DNA of 33,453 bases, taken from contig JAHFJL010000003.1 of assembly GCA_023245855.1 (NCBI GenBank), positions 14,424-47,876 of the forward strand, given 5' to 3'. Within the stretch, counting starts at the first letter, position 1. Each line of letters begins with the position of its first letter. Position numbers and translations under genes: made by a program. Shown here one piece after another: positions 2,049 to 32,637 of this stretch. The DNA is from a bacterium. Its GTDB lineage: Bacteria > Patescibacteriota > Gracilibacteria > Absconditabacterales > Absconditicoccaceae. The notes beneath the pieces are model-generated. The model was not told the origin of the DNA. It made no database searches and saw only the letters and a list, made by a program, of their open reading frames with translations.

Positions 2049-3911
2049 ATGCTTTTTTTCGATTATCTCAAGAACCTTGATACGCATATCAATTTTCTCA
2101 AAAAAAAGATCAAAGACAAACATACTCTCTTTCTCGTGTGATGATGTGTCAGAGATCTCCTTTTGGGTATAGAAAAAAAACCGATAGATATCGATTTTAC
2201 GATGAGCGGAGAACCGAAAACGCTTGAAAAACTCATAGATAAAACAGGGATGTCGTTTTTCATGACAGAGAAATTCTGAACTATGACGCTTATAGCTCAG
2301 CCCATACAGTCCATAAAGTCAAAAGTCAAAAGTCAAAATACTTCTACGAACTCAAAATCTGACCTTATGGACATTGGACTTGATGGACCTTCGACTATTA
2401 AGTATGAATTGACGCCCCTGAGAACTGAAGGCGATTATAACGATTCCCGCCATCCCGACACCATCAATCGAAGCAATGATATTCTCCTAGATTCGCAGAG
2501 AAGAGATTTTACGATCAATTGCATCTACTACGCAAATGAGCAACGGAAAAAAGAATACACTCCTCTCCTCAAAGATAAGCATATCATCAAATATACTGAC
2601 GACGAAATCTTTTTGAAAAAACTCGATGATCATGGATATTTACTTATCGCCGATCTCAACCTCCTTATCGTCCAAGATCATACACATATCAAGAAACTTT
2701 TTGATGATGGGATGTACGATGATAAACATCTTATGACTATGCTAAAATCAGTCACTCTATTTTCTCTCGAAAAACAGCCGAAAGCCAAAAGCTTAAAGCC
2801 AAAAGCCATAAGTATCATAATTGATCCGCAAAAAGGTATCCAGGACTGCATCAGAAGAAAATTGAAAGCCGTCTGAGATCCAGATAAAAGATTTATTGAA
2901 GATGCATTGAGGATTATCAGAGCGTTAAGATTTGTAAACGTTTTGAATGAGAAAATAAAAATCAATAAAAATCCATGAAAATCTACAAAAATCGATGAAA
3001 AAATCAGTCTTTTTGATTTTCAGAAAGAGACATGGAATAGCCTCAAAAAGAATCATGCATTAGTAAAAAATGTAGCTAAAGAAAGGATCAAAGAAGAAAT
3101 CATGAAAGCGTTCACCGATGGAAATCCATTTGGATTTGTCGCACTCATGGACGAAGCACAATTATTGGAACATCTGTTTCCTGCGTTATATGCGACAAAA
3201 AATATAGAACAACCAATCAGATATCATCCATTCGATGTCTACGCTCACACCCTATTGACGCTGTTTGAATTACAAAAGATAAATAAAAATCCGCTGGTGA
3301 GATTAGCGATGCTCTATCATGATGTAGGTAAAGTTGATCAATTCGGTGCCTATGCCGACAATCTCAGCAAAGAAGAGATCAGAGCTATCCTCGCTGGACC
3401 GCTCAATCATAGGAGAAGTTCACCTGAATATGCGAAAAAAGATTTCAAAGCGCTCGGATTTTCCAGCAAAGAGATTGCTGACATCGCTCGATATATCGCT
3501 CATCACCATACACCCGAAGAAATGATTTTCGCCAAGGAAGAAAATAAAGAAAAAAAAGTGAGATCTTTTTTCAGCGAGGCAGGCTACGAAAGAGCTATGA
3601 ATGTGTTGGATATCGCGATGGCTGATAGATTAGGGCAGTACAACCCTTTGCAAAATAGTTCTGATATTTCCGATGTAGACGATATAAGAAAAATCCTGAA
3701 AAAACTTCAGAAGGAAGAATGACAATTCACGATGAAGGAATTATGTATCGACGGTTGAGATATCATGAAAGAATTAAAATTGCCTGCATGACCTGCTATC
3801 GGGAAATTATTACAAAAAACACTTGATTGGGTTATGACAGATATCAAATGAAGGAATAACAAGAAGCAGATAGTAGGGTTTCTGAAGATACAATTGAAAC
3901 ATTTAAAATAA
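2049..3911 (+). CDS. cca: tRNA nucleotidyltransferase (CCA-adding / poly(A) polymerase family) with HD domain
   Basis: This 620-aa cytoplasmic enzyme adds or repairs the tRNA 3' CCA. Motifs in order: FLVGGCVRDLLLG (both Gly of VGG are TGA), catalytic DIDFT, KYELTPLRTEGDYND, RRDFTINCIYY, the RNA-binding RFIEDALRIIRALRF, an HD domain with HDVGK near residue 423 and HHRR, and a C-terminal PGPAIGK-type tail. ATG 2049 gives a normal lead-in to the VGG motif; no ATG lies just upstream in frame. Two insertions disturb the family layout: about residues 80-117 and about 160-255. Each contains a period-7 DNA repeat. The gene spans at least seven in-frame TGA codons and ends at TAA 3909-3911. The neighbouring tRNA-Lys already encodes CCA, so repair may be its main job for that tRNA. 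CCA-adding versus poly(A) activity cannot be told from sequence alone. Confidence 0.95.
2315..2335 (+). repeat. Heptamer tandem repeat (AAAGTCA)x3 inside cca
   Basis: Three perfect copies of AAAGTCA. The 21-nt length keeps the frame and encodes a Lys/Ser/Val-rich stretch within the first insertion of the tRNA nucleotidyltransferase. Confidence 0.85.
2781..2808 (+). repeat. Heptamer tandem repeat (AAAGCCA-type)x4 inside cca
   Basis: Four 7-nt units: AAAGCCA, AAAGCTT, AAAGCCA, AAAGCCA. They lie in the second insertion of the enzyme, in a Lys/Pro/Ala-rich peptide just before the conserved IIDPQKGIQD segment. Confidence 0.8.
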
Positions 3912-3922
3912 TTATTTTTTTT

Positions 3923-4043
3923 GTAGAGACATGCTATGGCGTGTCTCTTTTTTTTTATTTTATAGATAAGACGCGATTAATCGTGTCTCTACGAATTATT
4001 TTATTTTATCTTCAAAAAAGACACACGATCGTGTGTCTCTACG
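3923..4043. repeat. Left cluster of AGAC...GTCTCTACG palindromic repeats (3 units)
   Basis: Three units lie at 3923-3947, about 3966-3992 and about 4018-4042. All share AGAC/GTCT outer arms and a TCTCTACG (or CGTAGAGA-type) flank, but their palindromic cores differ: ATGC/GCGT, CGCGATTAATCG and the perfect AGACACACGATCGTGTGTCT. The third unit is followed by GTGTACGATTAACTA, nearly repeated after the last unit of the right cluster. Confidence 0.8.
3926..3956 (+). terminator. Terminator of cca formed by a palindromic repeat unit
   Basis: GAGACATGC-TATG-GCGTGTCTC followed by nine T begins 15 nt after the TAA of the tRNA nucleotidyltransferase. It is also the first unit of the dispersed palindrome family described next, so a repeat copy seems to serve as terminator. 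Confidence 0.75.
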
Positions 4044-4099
4044 GTGTACGATTAACTACTCGCTCCGCAATACTGCGAATAAAAATAATCAACCCCCAC

Positions 4100-4711
4100 T
4101 TAGGCGGACTTGAGACAACGAACGGACAAACCATAATACTCACCTGATTCGTCATCATACCATTCATCCTTGTGTCCGTAGAAGTTAGAACCATCGGCGC
4201 AACGTAGATCAAACATATTATCAATATCCTCGAATTCCTCGTCATTTGGAGTACGCCAACCAGCAAAAATCATTTTTTCTCATTTTAAGAAATTTTGATA
4301 ATTTCATTTATATTTTTTCTCAATGATATCTCTATAGGTAGTCCATGAAGCTGGTAATTTTTTTCCTGCTTTATTTGCCTCTCTCTTTGCCGATTCATCG
4401 GTGAATAACTGTTCTCATTTGTAATTTCCTTCTAGATATTCTCGCACATCTCCTTCTGGATTTTCTTTGACTTTCACTCAGTTTGGATCAGTAATTTCTT
4501 TCCAGTTTGTGCTATCTATCCTAAAATTTTCTTTTTCCAATTTTGGAATCTTTTCTATGGTTTCTTTCTTTTCTGCTTTAGTTCATATCTTCTTATTCAA
4601 GGCGTCAAAAAGTTTTTTTCTTTCTTGTTCATCAATAGTATTAACAATGCTTTTCGCTTGTTTCTCTGTTTTGATTTTCTTTTCAAAAGATCATTTAATT
4701 GGAGATACCAT
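4100..4711 (-). CDS. FISUMP-like protein (Fibrobacter succinogenes major paralogous domain), 203 aa
   Basis: ATG 4711 to TAA 4100, reading through six TGA (Gly) codons. The N-terminal half is Lys/Glu-rich and probably helical (EKKIKTEKQAKS, EQERKKLFDALNKK). The C-terminal half is the recognisable part: LPASWTTYRDIIEKKY, MIFAGWRTPNDEEFED, DGSNFYGHKDEWYDDE and the final EYYGLSVRCLKSA. The last resembles the Y-x-L-S-V-R-C-[LV]-K ending of FISUMP domains, which are abundant in CPR and Fibrobacter and of unknown role. No signal peptide is seen, although many FISUMP proteins are secreted. A promoter at 4792-4819 and a 7-bp hairpin (4753-4769) in the leader lie upstream. Palindromic repeat clusters flank the gene on both sides. 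The domain call is moderately sure; the function is unknown. Confidence 0.75.
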
Positions 4712-4791
4712 GATGATAAAGTTAGTAGGTAAAGAATTGTATAATATAAGACTCTCATTAAAAATGAGAACTTTTATTGTATTTCTTTTAT

Positions 4792-4819
4792 ATTATATGT
4801 ATTTACTATTAAAAGTCAA
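4792..4819 (-). promoter_or_regulatory. Promoter of the FISUMP-like gene
   Basis: On the minus strand TTGACT, a 16-bp spacer and TATAAT lie about 80 nt before the start. The leader then carries TCTCATT-TTT-AATGAGA (4753-4769), a possible attenuator or RNA-stabilising hairpin. Confidence 0.6.
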
Positions 4820-4833
4820 ATAATCATTTTTTT

Positions 4834-5076
4834 GTAGAGACATGCCATGGCGTGTCTCATTTTTTGTTTTTATAAATCAGACGCGATTAATCGCGTCTCT
4901 ACGATTTATTTTGTTTTATTTTTTCGTAGAGACGTCCATTTACCCACCTTCGTGGACTAGTGGCGTCTTTTTTTTTTATAAATAAGACGCGATTAATCGC
5001 GTCTCTACGGTGTATTTTGTAAACCTGCCTGTGCATAGCACAGCAAGACATTTCATGAAATGTCTCTACGATGTAC
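4834..5076. repeat. Right cluster of AGAC...GTCTCTACG palindromic repeats (5 units)
   Basis: This fills most of the 400-bp gene-free stretch 4712-5111; the rest holds the FISUMP promoter and leader. Units at about 4834-4858 (core CATGCCATGGCGTG), 4880-4904 (AGACGCGATTAATCGCGTCT), 4925-4970 (longer, imperfect, T-tract after it), 4985-5009 (same GATTAATC core) and 5046-5070 (AGACATTTCATGAAATGTCT). Arms and the TCTCTACG flank are kept while cores change together on both sides. The last unit is followed by ATGTACGGTTACTA, matching the flank of the left cluster. Confidence 0.8.
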
Positions 5077-26367: not shown

Positions 26368-29300
26368 TTACAAACTAGGAAGCGTGATAATAAGCGTACC
26401 AGAATATTGACCTAATGCTTGATATGCAGAAATATCTATTCTAAGCTCTACTTGAGAAGTTTCTATCTTACATATATTTCCTGTACTTGCTGACTTTCCA
26501 AGGACGACAGTATCTGTACCGATGCTTGTTCGTGCATCCAATGATGATCATGAATTCGCAATACATATTCATGAGCTCACTGTTGCTGCAGGATTCTTAA
26601 TAAAGATATTGCTGCTTGGGATAGTATGTGCGGGGATATTTGTGGTGATATTGAGAAGATCACTTGATTGGATGCTCAAAGTTCGAGGAGCAGCTCCTTG
26701 AATATCGTTACAGAACCATGCGTTGTTGCCGCTCATCGTTATAAATGATCAGGTGATTGATCTTCCTGATGATGCATATATTATGGTACCGAAATCCAAT
26801 GTTTTTCCATATTCACAATATCCAATACCACTCGCACCTGTATAATTGATGCTGTCATTGGTATATGCTTCTACGGTACCAGTTATTCCGTCAGTGTCAA
26901 ATTGAGCTCGTACGGTCTTCATTCCGAATCCTGTGGAGAGTGTCCATGCTTTGGTAGGATCATATCCTTCCCAATCGCTTCGTGATCCACTTGCGCCTGT
27001 ATTGGAGAAACTCATATTTTGTATTCACGTAGCATTGATATTTAGTGTAACTGAATCGCTCGTTGTGGAAGGAGCATCGTTGTTGATGACGAAAGTACCC
27101 GTTGAAATCCCAATTGCGAATAGAGTGAGATGATTAGTATCTATTGATACATAGGGATGTTCATTGATATTTATGACATTAGTTGGAGTTGAGGCGGTCC
27201 ATGTGGATCCATCGTCATGAGAATAATAAACCGAAACAAAATCTCCTATCGCAGCTCCTGGAACCGGTATTCTCAGCTGTACGTTTACAGGATGATCTGA
27301 TATATCTGTAAAATGGATTGATTCGTTTTGATTGTTACCGAAGTCTACTACAGCAAGAACATTAGGGATCCCTGCTTGTGTAGCGAGTGAAGTCGATTGT
27401 TCGATTGGAGTGTCGAGAATTCCAAGAAATGGACTATTATCTTGCTTCTTGACTACGATGCCAGCAGGTGCTTGCATTTCTATTTTGTCAGCTCCCGTTG
27501 ATTGCATGATAAAAGGGATTAATATCTCTCCATCACTGAATTCACTCCTGATTCTTCTGCTTCCTACATAGGTTCCATTTTGGATGTTTTCTAAAGTGCC
27601 TGTTCCATTGATGTATCTCTTACGAGTAAATTCATCAATAATAGTATTTTGATCTGATCTATTTGACGGGATATCTACGGTGTACGTCAAACAATTCGCA
27701 TCACAATAGAGTCATAATCTATTATTTGCTCCATTGTCGCATTGTTCACCTGTTTCTATGATTCCGTTTCCACAGACTGCTGGTCCTGGTACACATGCAG
27801 CATCACCTGCAGGCACAGGAGGTATAAATTTCTGGATACGATTATTACTTGAATCTGCAACATAAGTATCTCATTGTACATCTGCTTTTATATCACCAGG
27901 TCAATTAAGTTGTCCGTTATCAGGACCTAGCAATCCCCATTTTCTTACAAATGTATATGCACCACTTCAACCACAGATAGTGTTATTATTCATATCATTT
28001 CCTGTAGTACAGATATTGTCAGTATAACAATCACAGCCATCACCAATACCATTGGTATTCACATCGGCTTGATCAGGATTGATCACTAACGGACAGTTAT
28101 CGATAGAGAATCCCGAGCTTTGTGCAGGAGCTCCAACTTTTCATGATTGAGATACGGGAGTGACTTCAAATATGAGGGTTGTATTATCTGTAGGAGTTAC
28201 CGTATAGGTTCTGCTTGTCTCTCCAGGAATCTCACTATTATTGAGATATCGTTTGAATGTAGAAGTAGCTTGAGGATCAGTTCAGAACTTCATTACGGTA
28301 GCTTTGTTATTGTTTGTGCTATCCGTGTATGCAATGTAAGGAAGGTCGCTGATAGGATTGATAGTGAGTGAAGTATATAGTGTTCAACTTGTAGAAGCTG
28401 GTGTACCACCGAGAAATTCTCGATCAGTTCCGTTGAATTTTTGTACAGTAGCTTTGTTGCTAGTAGTAGCATCAACATAAGCAACATAAGCCACTCAACT
28501 ACTATTTATAGCAAGTGAGACTGCGTCATTGATACCATCAGCGATTGGTGATCCTACAGCAACCCAAGAAGCGCCATCGAATTTTTGTATGGTAGTGGTC
28601 TGTTGATTGGTATTGCCTTGGTAATTTTGGTAGACTACATAAGGAGTATTGTTATTACCTATAGTAATCGAAGAATCAAATGCTTGAGTATTGGAGAATC
28701 CTTGAGTACCGACAAATTCCCAACTGCTTCCATTAAATTTTTGTACGGTGATTGCATATCCAACTGCTCCATCTGCATAAGCAATATATAGGATATGATT
28801 AGCATCTATAGCAAGCGAAGGCGATCCTGCATAATTATCGGACAATCCTGGAACACCCACAAATTCTCGATCAGTTCCATTGAATTTTTTTACGGTAGCT
28901 TTGTAGCTATGTCAATCATCTCTATAAGCAAGATAAGGAGTACCATCCGAATCTATAACAAGCGATGGATAATATACTGAACCACTAGAGAATGCTGAAG
29001 TACCGACAAATGCTCGATTACTGCCATTAAATTTCATGACGGAAGATCCATATCAATTGGTATATGCTACATACGGTTTATTGGTGGTTGGATTGATGGC
29101 GAGCGAGATATTGCTATTTACACCATCAACGGAAAATTGTCCTGAGCCTATGGTAGTCCAAGAAGATCAGTTCCATTTCATTACGGTGATATTACTTACG
29201 TTATCTATACAATTTGGAGGATCAAGCCAATTGCTGCAGAAATCATCTTTGTATGCTATATAGGGAGTTCAGCTGCTATCAAACGCAAGAGAGGTGTATG

Positions 29301-32300
29301 ATGCTGGTCCTCTTGAGACCGCTCCGCTCGCAAGCCCTTGGATACCTACGGGTATCCAGAAGTCATTGAAGTAGGTGTAGTTGCCTGTGAGTGTTTGCCC
29401 GTTGACTATTGTACCTGAGATAGAAACATTTTGTGCAACAGGAATATGTTCGAGAGTACAAGTAGCGGAACATCAGTCACCACTTGTATTATTTCCATCG
29501 TCACATTGTTCACCTGTTTCTACAATACCGTTACCACAGGTATAACAAGCTGTAGTATCTTGGACATTTTCCCGATTATAATAGAATGAATATCCATCAT
29601 TGTATGACGCTTTGCTATCCAAGAAAGAGATAAGATCAGAACTCAAAGTATTTGTACATATCTTATTATTTTGTAGCGAGAGAGAATATGCGAGTCAATC
29701 CATTCCCACATAGTATGTCCCTGGCAGTCCCGCAAGTTCAGTGATAAGGCTCTCAGGAAGCGTAGCTAATTGATTGTTTTGGAGATAGAGATTTTGAAGA
29801 ACAGAGAGTCCATTGAAAGCACCGGTCGAGATATCCGTAAGAAGATTATTCTCTAGATGAAGATTTAATAGACTAGATAATCAATTAAAAGAATCAGCTC
29901 AAAGAGTTGTTAGTTGATTATTCTGGAGAGATAAATTTTGAAGAACAGATAATCAATTAAAGTCATTACTAGATATATTTGTAATGTTGTTGCTGCTGAG
30001 ATTAAGAGTGGTGAGATAGGCCAATCCAGAAAGAGAAGGTAATTCTCACGAGAGATTGTTGGTTGATAGATTTATCGAAGTCACATGTCCAGCACTACAA
30101 GAGATCCCGTTCCAACCATTGTTGGCATCATTACAGATAGTCCATCCATTAAGCCAGCGACCTGTAGTAGTCCAATGGTCTCCATCTGTTCCCGTATATA
30201 GTCTCACTAACGCTTCACATTCAGCTGGAGAGATATCAACCGTATCACAAGAGAACACTGGTGGTGTACAATTATCTGGAGTTTGTAAAGATTGCCAGTA
30301 TATTCAAAAATTGGTATTAATGAAGTTAAATGTGTCTGTATTTAATGAATAGATACATATCTTATTATAGTTTAAAGTAAGATATGTCAGACTAGGTAAA
30401 TCGGAAACACTGGCAAAACTGGAAATATGATTATTTTCTAAATCAAGACGATCCAAATAATTTAATCCGGAGAGCGAAGGCACGGTTCATGAAAGATTGC
30501 TTGAGTGGATACTCAATTTCGTTACATGTCCACCGATACAACTAACATCAAACTGCATACATACATCAGGGATTGTGGTCTTTGCACAATATACATCATA
30601 TCGATTACAAATTCCTGTTGTAGTTCACCATTGCTTTCCAGTGCCAGCGGTTCCATAAATAGGAGAATATCCACCCCCTAGATACAAATTCCAGTTGTCT
30701 CCATTGGTAGCGTTATAGAATCTCGCTAAAGCTTTACATTCTGTTACAGGGACATCCAAACTTCACGAATTGAAATCACACCAGGTGTCGTTGAATCCAG
30801 TCACTACTAGAGGTACTGGACATGCACTAGTATCTTGATGCAATGACCAATTATAACCAAAATTCATAAAGCTGTAATTACTTTCATTAAGGAAATTAAT
30901 CATTGGTGTACTTAATGAATCTATACAAAGACTATTGTCTCCGACGAATAAATGTCAGTCAGGCCAAGCTCGAGTCGTATACAATCCAGAAAGCGTATCC
31001 TGTGTTATATTTCCTATTTGATTATATTTTACATCGATATAATATCCGCTAGACAACCCAATAAACGCATTATCTCCTATACCTGCTATCCTATTCATTG
31101 CTAAATGGATTGTCTGAAGGCTATAAAGTCCAGCAAATGCACCTGTAGCAATACTTGTTATATCATTCTGATCTAAATTAATAAAGGTAAGTCCCGTCAG
31201 TCCAGTAAAATCCGGTATGTCTGTGAAAAAATTATTATTTGCATAGAAAGAATAAAGGCTAGAAAGTCAGTTCAAACTAGGTAGATTTGTTAGTTGGTTA
31301 TAATCTAGGTATATATATTCAAGATGAGTCAATCCAGAAAAGGAATCATTCGTGATACTTGTCAGATAATTATTTGATAAAGAAATATTCATTAGATCGG
31401 ATAATCACGTAAGCGAAGGTAAAGTTCATGAGAGATTATTATTGGAAAGATTGATTATACTCACATGGTTATTACAGACGATTCCGCTCCAACCACCGCT
31501 ACAAACCGTTGGTGAAGATAGCCATCCTCCTGTATTCGTCCATCCGGATCAATTTGTAGAATCATATATACTGACCAAATTTTCACATTCAGATTGAGGG
31601 ATGTCAGTGACTGTACTACAATCGAATCCAGCTGGTGCTGAACAAGCGCTAGAGTCTTGAGCAGATGGCCAACTCCCGCCTAATGTACTATTCAAAAACG
31701 CCATAACATCCATACTCAAAGATCAGGTACAAATTTTATTAGTGAAGATTTGCAATACAGATAGAGCATTAAGTGATGTGAAGCTATCAGGAATCGTAGT
31801 GAGCTGGTTGCTATCTAAATACAGATAATGAAGATTAGGGAATCCTGCAAAACTAGGAAGACTGGTAATCTGGTTGCTAGATACATAAAGCTGCTGAAGA
31901 TTAGAAAGTCCAGCGATATTAGGTATATCTGTCAGAAGATTGCTAGATACATCCAGTTTGTTAAGATTAGATAATCCTGTAAAACTAGGGATATTTGAGA
32001 TTGTGAGTTGATTGTTTGATAGATCAAGTTGCTGAAGACTAGTTATCACGTTAAGATCGGGTACGCTTGTCAATCAATTATGATCTAAACTAAGATATCG
32101 AGGAGTGCTTCCAGCAAACATTTCGTTTCTGACAGGCAATCCAGGATTGTTGCCCAGAAAAAGAAATTTTGCATTTGTTCCATCAAGTGCGTTGTCTCCT
32201 ATATCCGTCAATCCATTATTATTGAGATAGAGATAAGCGAGACTAGTCAATCCCGTAAGCGAAGGAATAGTTCATGAGAGATTATTATAAGCGAGATTGA

Positions 32301-32637
32301 GATTATTTACATGGTTATCAGTATTACAATTGATACCATGCCAAACACCACAGACTGTAGTTGAAACAAACCATCCTCCCGTATTGGTCCACCCCGATCA
32401 ATTGGTAGAAGTATATAATCTGACTAAATTTTCACATTCATCTCCAGAAATATCCAGACTTCAAGAATTATCACTACACCATGATTCTCTCATATCTGCA
32501 TGTGGAGAATTTTGAAACAAGAGAAATCAGGTTAGCGAAATAGCTAGCACTCAAAGCAGATATTTAAATCCGTGTTTGTGCATATGATGCTTTACCTTGG
32601 TATGGATATGTTGTGGTTTTTTTTTGGGTATTTTCAT
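26368..32637 (-). CDS. Giant surface protein: LRR modules, beta-propeller and Cys-rich repeats, 2089 aa
   Basis: One uninterrupted code-25 frame. It starts MKIPKKKPQHIHTKV, with a membrane/signal helix at about 25-44 (KYLLGVLAISLTGFLLF). Residues 50-1025 hold four LRR modules. Each opens with an N-cap like plant receptor LRRs (ECENLVRLYTSTNGSGWTN, then GGW and C-x-W-x-G-I-x-C) and ends in a C-cap (NKIC...FLN). A Cys-rich DUF4215-like unit follows at 1031-1060 (CGNGIVETGEQCDDGNN). About seven 50-aa units at 1089-1452 suggest a beta-propeller. Then come a thrombospondin-3-like DNCPLVINPDQADVN, one NHL-like unit (DTYVADSSNNRIQKF), a second DUF4215-like unit, and a C-terminal beta domain ending GQYSGTLIITLPSL. 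No LPXTG motif. Likely an adhesin exposed on the cell surface. Promoter at 32695-32722. Confidence 0.92.
28283..29372 (-). repeat. About seven 50-aa propeller-type repeats within the giant gene
   Basis: Each unit follows the pattern S-L-A-I-[DN]-x-x-x-x-P-Y-[IV]-A-Y-x-D, a short loop, then ATVxKFNGxxWEFVG. Examples are DGTPYLAYRDD, KATVKKFNGTDREFVG and NTPYVVYQNY. Seven units would close one propeller. DNA identity between units is visible (GTACGGTAGCTTTGT-like words), so they arose by recent tandem duplication. Confidence 0.8.
29560..32510 (-). repeat. Four N-/C-capped leucine-rich repeat modules within the giant gene
   Basis: Modules start near 32510, 31640, 30770 and 30250. Typical LRR units are LSNLNKLDVSSNLLTDIPNI and LSVLQNLYLQNNQLATLP, the 22-24-aa bacterial/plant pattern. 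Module 3 is short (about two LRRs) and its N-cap carries an extra Cys-rich insert (ICNRYDVYCAKTT). Confidence 0.85.

Follow-up and report, generated by a model that had tools for sequence, protein, structure and literature searches.

RAYTs (REP-associated tyrosine transposases) are HuH enzymes, and pairs of inverted REPs are known as REPINs; small palindromic repeats are also known from cyanobacteria. The described systems closest to the elements considered here are those of TnpAREP subclass 2.4. According to the accessible part of their description (PMC6006769), the REPs of this subclass possess a GTAG foot and a long stem and also occur in "double foot" forms, an in-frame REP lies within the transposase gene between the HuH and Y motifs, and the transposases carry WQ and YIxNNP motifs. 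We present a group of palindromes from a stretch of 33,453 nucleotides, which is called the window below. With a probability of about 0.85, these palindromes are GTAG-tagged REP elements of the subclass 2.4 type, targets of RAYTs that would have moved or copied them, in which the foot and the lower stem would be recognised and the upper stem would be free to change as long as it remained paired.

The initial annotation described eight palindromes of the form AGAC...GTCTCTACG. Seven units that match GTAGAGAC-N12-GTCT exactly were found in the window, compared with none in 100 shuffles of the window, and the eighth proved to be a longer, irregular and interrupted hairpin, located at 4926-4968 on the plus strand, that forms no simple palindrome. 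The form as first written fits five units on the plus strand, the other three being in the opposite orientation. A GTAG tetranucleotide is located at the foot of the hairpin in all seven regular units and in irregular unit 6, and the units are one-footed, in that none carries GAGAC on both of its sides. When oriented by this tetranucleotide, units 1-2, 4-5 and 6-7 form outward-facing pairs, and units 3 and 8 are single. The pairs have an A+T-rich middle, and in each of them the partners have unlike cores. Four types of core are present: ATGC(T/C)ATGGCGT, (A/G)CGATTAATCGC, ACACGATCGTGT and ATTTCATGAAAT. The suggestion that cores are exchanged while staying palindromic is correct insofar as pairing is largely kept, with the qualification that the cores fall into these four types and that three of the seven regular units contain one non-Watson-Crick pair (T-G at 3923 and 4834, A-C at 3969). 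An Rfam scan of the window gave a single match, to a tRNA. The features are listed in Table 1.

Table 1. Palindromic units, duplicated segments and enclosed gene, in window coordinates; units are stranded by their GTAG foot.
Feature	Position	Strand	Remarks
REP unit 1	3923..3946	+	GTAG foot; core ATGCTATGGCGT; followed by T run; candidate cca terminator
REP unit 2	3969..3992	-	core ACGATTAATCGC; outward-facing partner is unit 1
REP unit 3	4019..4042	-	core ACACGATCGTGT; followed by T run; terminator candidate for the 4100-4711 gene
REP unit 4	4834..4857	+	core ATGCCATGGCGT, found exactly within the RAYT gene of relative G022
REP unit 5	4879..4902	-	core GCGATTAATCGC, found exactly within RAYT genes of G014, G062 and a Bacteroidales MAG (L223)
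Unit 6	4926..4968	+	irregular longer hairpin; GTAG foot; T run; outward-facing partner is unit 7
REP unit 7	4985..5008	-	core GCGATTAATCGC
REP unit 8	5046..5069	-	core ATTTCATGAAAT; outer flank common to units 8 and 3
Left copy of 107-base segment	3906..4012	+	surrounds units 1-2; blastn, 95/107 identical to 4818-4922
Right copy of segment	4818..4922	+	surrounds units 4-5
Gene flanked by both clusters	4100..4711	-	203 aa under code 25; FISUMP-like, weak

The left and right clusters are direct copies in the same orientation. Their relationship is indicated by the identity of the segment (95 of 107 bases) together with the flanks on the outer side of units 3 and 8, for which the further common flank reported in the initial annotation was confirmed at 19 of 21 bases. 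Units 3 and 8 therefore occupy matching places in the two copies, yet their cores differ.

Covariation, which had been proposed as a check, is evident across genomes. Among 39 distinct 12-base cores, 88% of the pairs are of Watson-Crick type, compared with 40% on average and 54% at most in 5000 shuffles. A comparable relationship is found at one homologous site: in five RAYT genes that are 54-70% identical, the place of the palindrome is constant and its core changes in step with its arms. Paired changes that preserve the fold, as originally asserted, are present in both settings. The further idea that RNA in particular is selected did not gain support, since mismatches of the G-T type (12) and the A-C type (8) are similar in frequency, as expected if the DNA matters; this comparison includes two-footed units, which have no defined strand. 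Core differences inside a genome comprise one-sided steps in 11 pairs and paired steps in five.

The arms behave differently from the cores. On a tree of 66 RAYTs, the distinction between AGAGAC and GGG-type arms requires three changes, compared with 20.3 when arms are shuffled (0 of 500 shuffles were as low). There is an exception to this agreement, the sister pair L223 and L224, which have the same core and an altered arm. That the arm follows the RAYT tree and the cores turn over suggests that the arm probably serves the transposase as its address and that the core would only have to fold. A rule of this kind, in which the arm follows the transposase and the core drifts, would lead to a direct reading of the bases that a RAYT recognises. 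It is tempting, with more doubt than confidence, to extend this notion: the outer arm may be a heritable address that a clade of transposases has in common with its palindromes, in different phyla and on both sides of a genetic-code boundary. Cores would then be exchanged at their sites by a process that preserves the palindrome (conversion or copying from a hairpin template), and the in-gene palindrome might serve as the master copy.

Many RAYT genes, though not all, hold an in-frame palindrome between the HuH and tyrosine motifs; the raw count is 49 of 74 RAYT genes from named genomes, with one run of N left out. Two cores of the window occur exactly within such genes (Table 1), so that exact cores are common to different phyla. 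The RAYT gene of G022 (L137) contains two inverted palindromes with unlike cores, one identical to the core of unit 4 and the other resembling unit 3. The core of an internal palindrome recurs elsewhere in its own genome in five of 12 RAYT genomes, compared with seven of 132 pairs of different genomes (p 0.00015); in the other seven of the 12 it was not found elsewhere in the genome. No exact copy of the unit 3 or unit 8 core was present elsewhere among the matches listed, and a search of viral contigs for these cores gave no match. The core of unit 5 is present in 24 stretches of viral contigs, in which a simple motif scan using the standard code detected no RAYT frame.

We also compared the distributions of units and RAYTs among 99 genomes. 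The loose pattern AGACN{6,18}GTCTCTAC has matches in 58 of these, mostly at the level of the control and with high counts in some. PF01797 was detected in 35 of the 99, and a profile built from nine relatives (A1) detected RAYTs in 36, including the genome of the window. At least six copies of the pattern are present in 17 of the 36 genomes with an A1 RAYT and in two of the 63 without one (p 1.6e-7); these genomes share descent, so that the points are not independent, and a reversed control pattern is also slightly commoner in the A1 genomes (mean 2.5 versus 1.6, p 0.04). No RAYT was found in G073, with 17 matches to the pattern, or in G041, with four. Adjacency between GTAGAGAC units and PF01797 genes seems poor unless the copies inside the genes are taken into account. 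In another genome (G083:C70:4663-4791), five GTAGAGAC units, four of them identical, lie in the same direction with their starts 26 bases apart.

The identity of these genes is supported by the residues that are invariant in profile A1, namely H83, H85, W155, Q156, Y176, N180 and P181, which belong to the HuH, WQ and YIxNNP motifs. All six RAYTs scanned matched NCBIfam NF047646, five of them under its cut-off, and the only match of the RAYT profile in the PDB was 4er8, TnpArep. For the conserved tryptophan of the WQ motif, all 11 RAYTs from TGA-reading genomes (loci L140, L137 and L134 among them) use CGA or CGG, and all 13 others use TGG. The use of CGA and CGG as Trp has been published for Absconditabacteria, as stated in the accessible part of PMC8629427; our codons fit this reassignment and help to place the organism of the window. 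The RAYTs of TGA-reading genomes are not monophyletic, as at least three changes are forced and a tree with a single clade was obtained in 0 of 200 bootstraps. Since there is no single clade, RAYT genes appear to have passed between genetic codes on more than one occasion. At one locus (L090, G056:C83), a RAYT fragment follows a long run of repeated peptide (REPREHELS-like), which is perhaps a tandem expansion of an in-gene REP.

The host assembly comprises 1.11 Mb in 70 contigs and is 90.6% complete. Its long genes are open only when TGA is read as glycine; a very long frame at 26368-32637 of the window encodes 2089 aa under code 25. The initial annotation proposed a search for a REP-type transposase, and one is indeed present in the host as well as in relatives. 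Pfam PF01797 alone missed the host gene, which was found with profile A1 at C24:7476-7958. This RAYT carries two identical 33-base palindromes, one inside the gene and one just upstream (L140, G000:C24:7476-8037), and they belong to a class that differs from that of the window. REPs frequently, though not invariably, have a member of their class in or beside a RAYT gene of their genome. This holds for the host's other class and not for the window class: the sole RAYT found in the assembly, which is 90.6% complete, carries the other class, and no RAYT of the window class was found there. Because of this difference in class, the window units look orphaned in their host. The other class is dispersed over 12 places in the genome, and the window class is found at this locus and at one more clear place, on C56, where it faces a GTAG-footed partner. 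The matches on C34 and C43 lack a clean palindrome; the control pattern gave five matches.

The order of genes at the locus is cca (2049-3911), left cluster, the 203-aa gene, right cluster, cytidine deaminase, HAD hydrolase and miaA. The units sit between convergent and same-direction genes. The FISUMP label given to the 203-aa gene is weak, as PF09603 matches it with E 0.03, under the family cut-off, and matches three paralogues in the same genome with a best E of 0.085. Five further matches to the gene lie in its own genome, and its closest relative is in G007 (78%). The distance between cca and the facing miaA is about 140 bases in G005 and G007; in G008 the gene opposite cca is HAD, followed by miaA, at about 370 bases. 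In all three the 203-aa gene is absent from this site. No GTAG-type unit was found downstream of cca in the available flanks of G001, G003-G008 or G010, the last of which has one such unit upstream of cca. Since the cca sites of relatives lack both, the units and the gene are extra in the genome of the window. Empty orthologous sites had been named in the initial annotation as evidence that would refute its reading; they do exist in relatives, yet they are no refutation because mobile elements predict them.

Might the palindromes be immobile RNA elements, that is, terminators or mRNA stabilisers under selection at the level of transcription alone? Their location between convergent and same-direction genes agrees with such a role, as does the structure of several units. 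Unit 1 is a terminator-like hairpin followed by a T run, 11 bases past the cca stop codon, and is a candidate for the cca terminator named in the initial annotation. Three terminator-like sites were found in the window, units 1 and 4 among them, with 0.9 expected in shuffles, and units 1, 3, 4 and 6 form good folds that run into T. However, units 2, 5, 7 and 8 lack T runs, relatives lack the units at the same site, palindromes also occur in frame within transposase genes and exact cores are common to different phyla. The mismatches, moreover, have no clear strand bias, which argues against selection on RNA only. Taken together, these data make an origin as RNA elements alone highly improbable. 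That the units are the ends of a miniature element (MITE) of a DDE-type transposon is scarcely credible: the inverted pairs do surround an A+T-rich middle, but the foot and stem are REP-like and match those in RAYT genes, and the unit is the palindrome itself rather than a long terminal repeat.

A further proposal would add to the REP reading rather than replace it. The homologous clusters may have carried the 203-aa gene between cca and HAD/miaA as a REP-bounded, composite-like cassette. The direct repetition of the clusters and the absence of the gene from the cca-miaA and cca-HAD-miaA sites of relatives are in accord with this. Nevertheless, the cytidine deaminase gene, which is likewise missing in those relatives, lies outside the bracket formed by the clusters; the available upstream flank of the 78% relative in G007 contains no REP (its other side ends at the contig end); and no REP was found near the same-genome paralogues. 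We consider the cassette unlikely.

Several points weigh against the preferred reading, that these are GTAG-tagged REPs: the host assembly yielded no RAYT of the window class, which is almost restricted to this locus; G073 and G041 have pattern matches and no RAYT that could be found; the internal core did not recur in seven of the 12 RAYT genomes; the genomes compared are related; and the cores of units 3 and 8 had no exact counterpart among the matches listed. Under this reading, a clade of RAYTs would recognise the foot and lower stem (GTAGAGAC) of a single-strand hairpin and copy or move the unit. The upper stem would only need to pair, and would drift both by paired change and by replacement. 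A RAYT active in the lineage may have placed units as outward-facing pairs behind cca, the segment of about 107 bases with one outward pair would have been duplicated afterwards, and some units may now be used as ready-made terminators.

The window contains three inverted pairs, comparable with REPINs except that the partners here differ in core. The units resemble the GTAG-tagged REPs described in PMC3733652 in having GTAG at one end, complementary changes in the stem and outward-facing dimers, as well as clusters that take in flanking DNA and sites between convergent and same-direction genes; the phyla named in the accessible part of that paper do not include Patescibacteria. In the open literature, we found no paper that joins REP palindromes with Patescibacteria or RAYTs with candidate phyla. 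The likeness to TnpAREP subclass 2.4, as far as the accessible part of PMC6006769 describes it, extends to the foot, the stem, the in-gene REP and the WQ and YIxNNP motifs of the RAYTs. The present case differs in that the window units are one-footed and form pairs of mixed class, that the assembly contains no RAYT of their own class and that the host reads TGA as glycine. The kind of element is therefore known and the host is new for REP/RAYT; such systems are thereby placed in genomes of candidate-phyla type that are both reduced and recoded.
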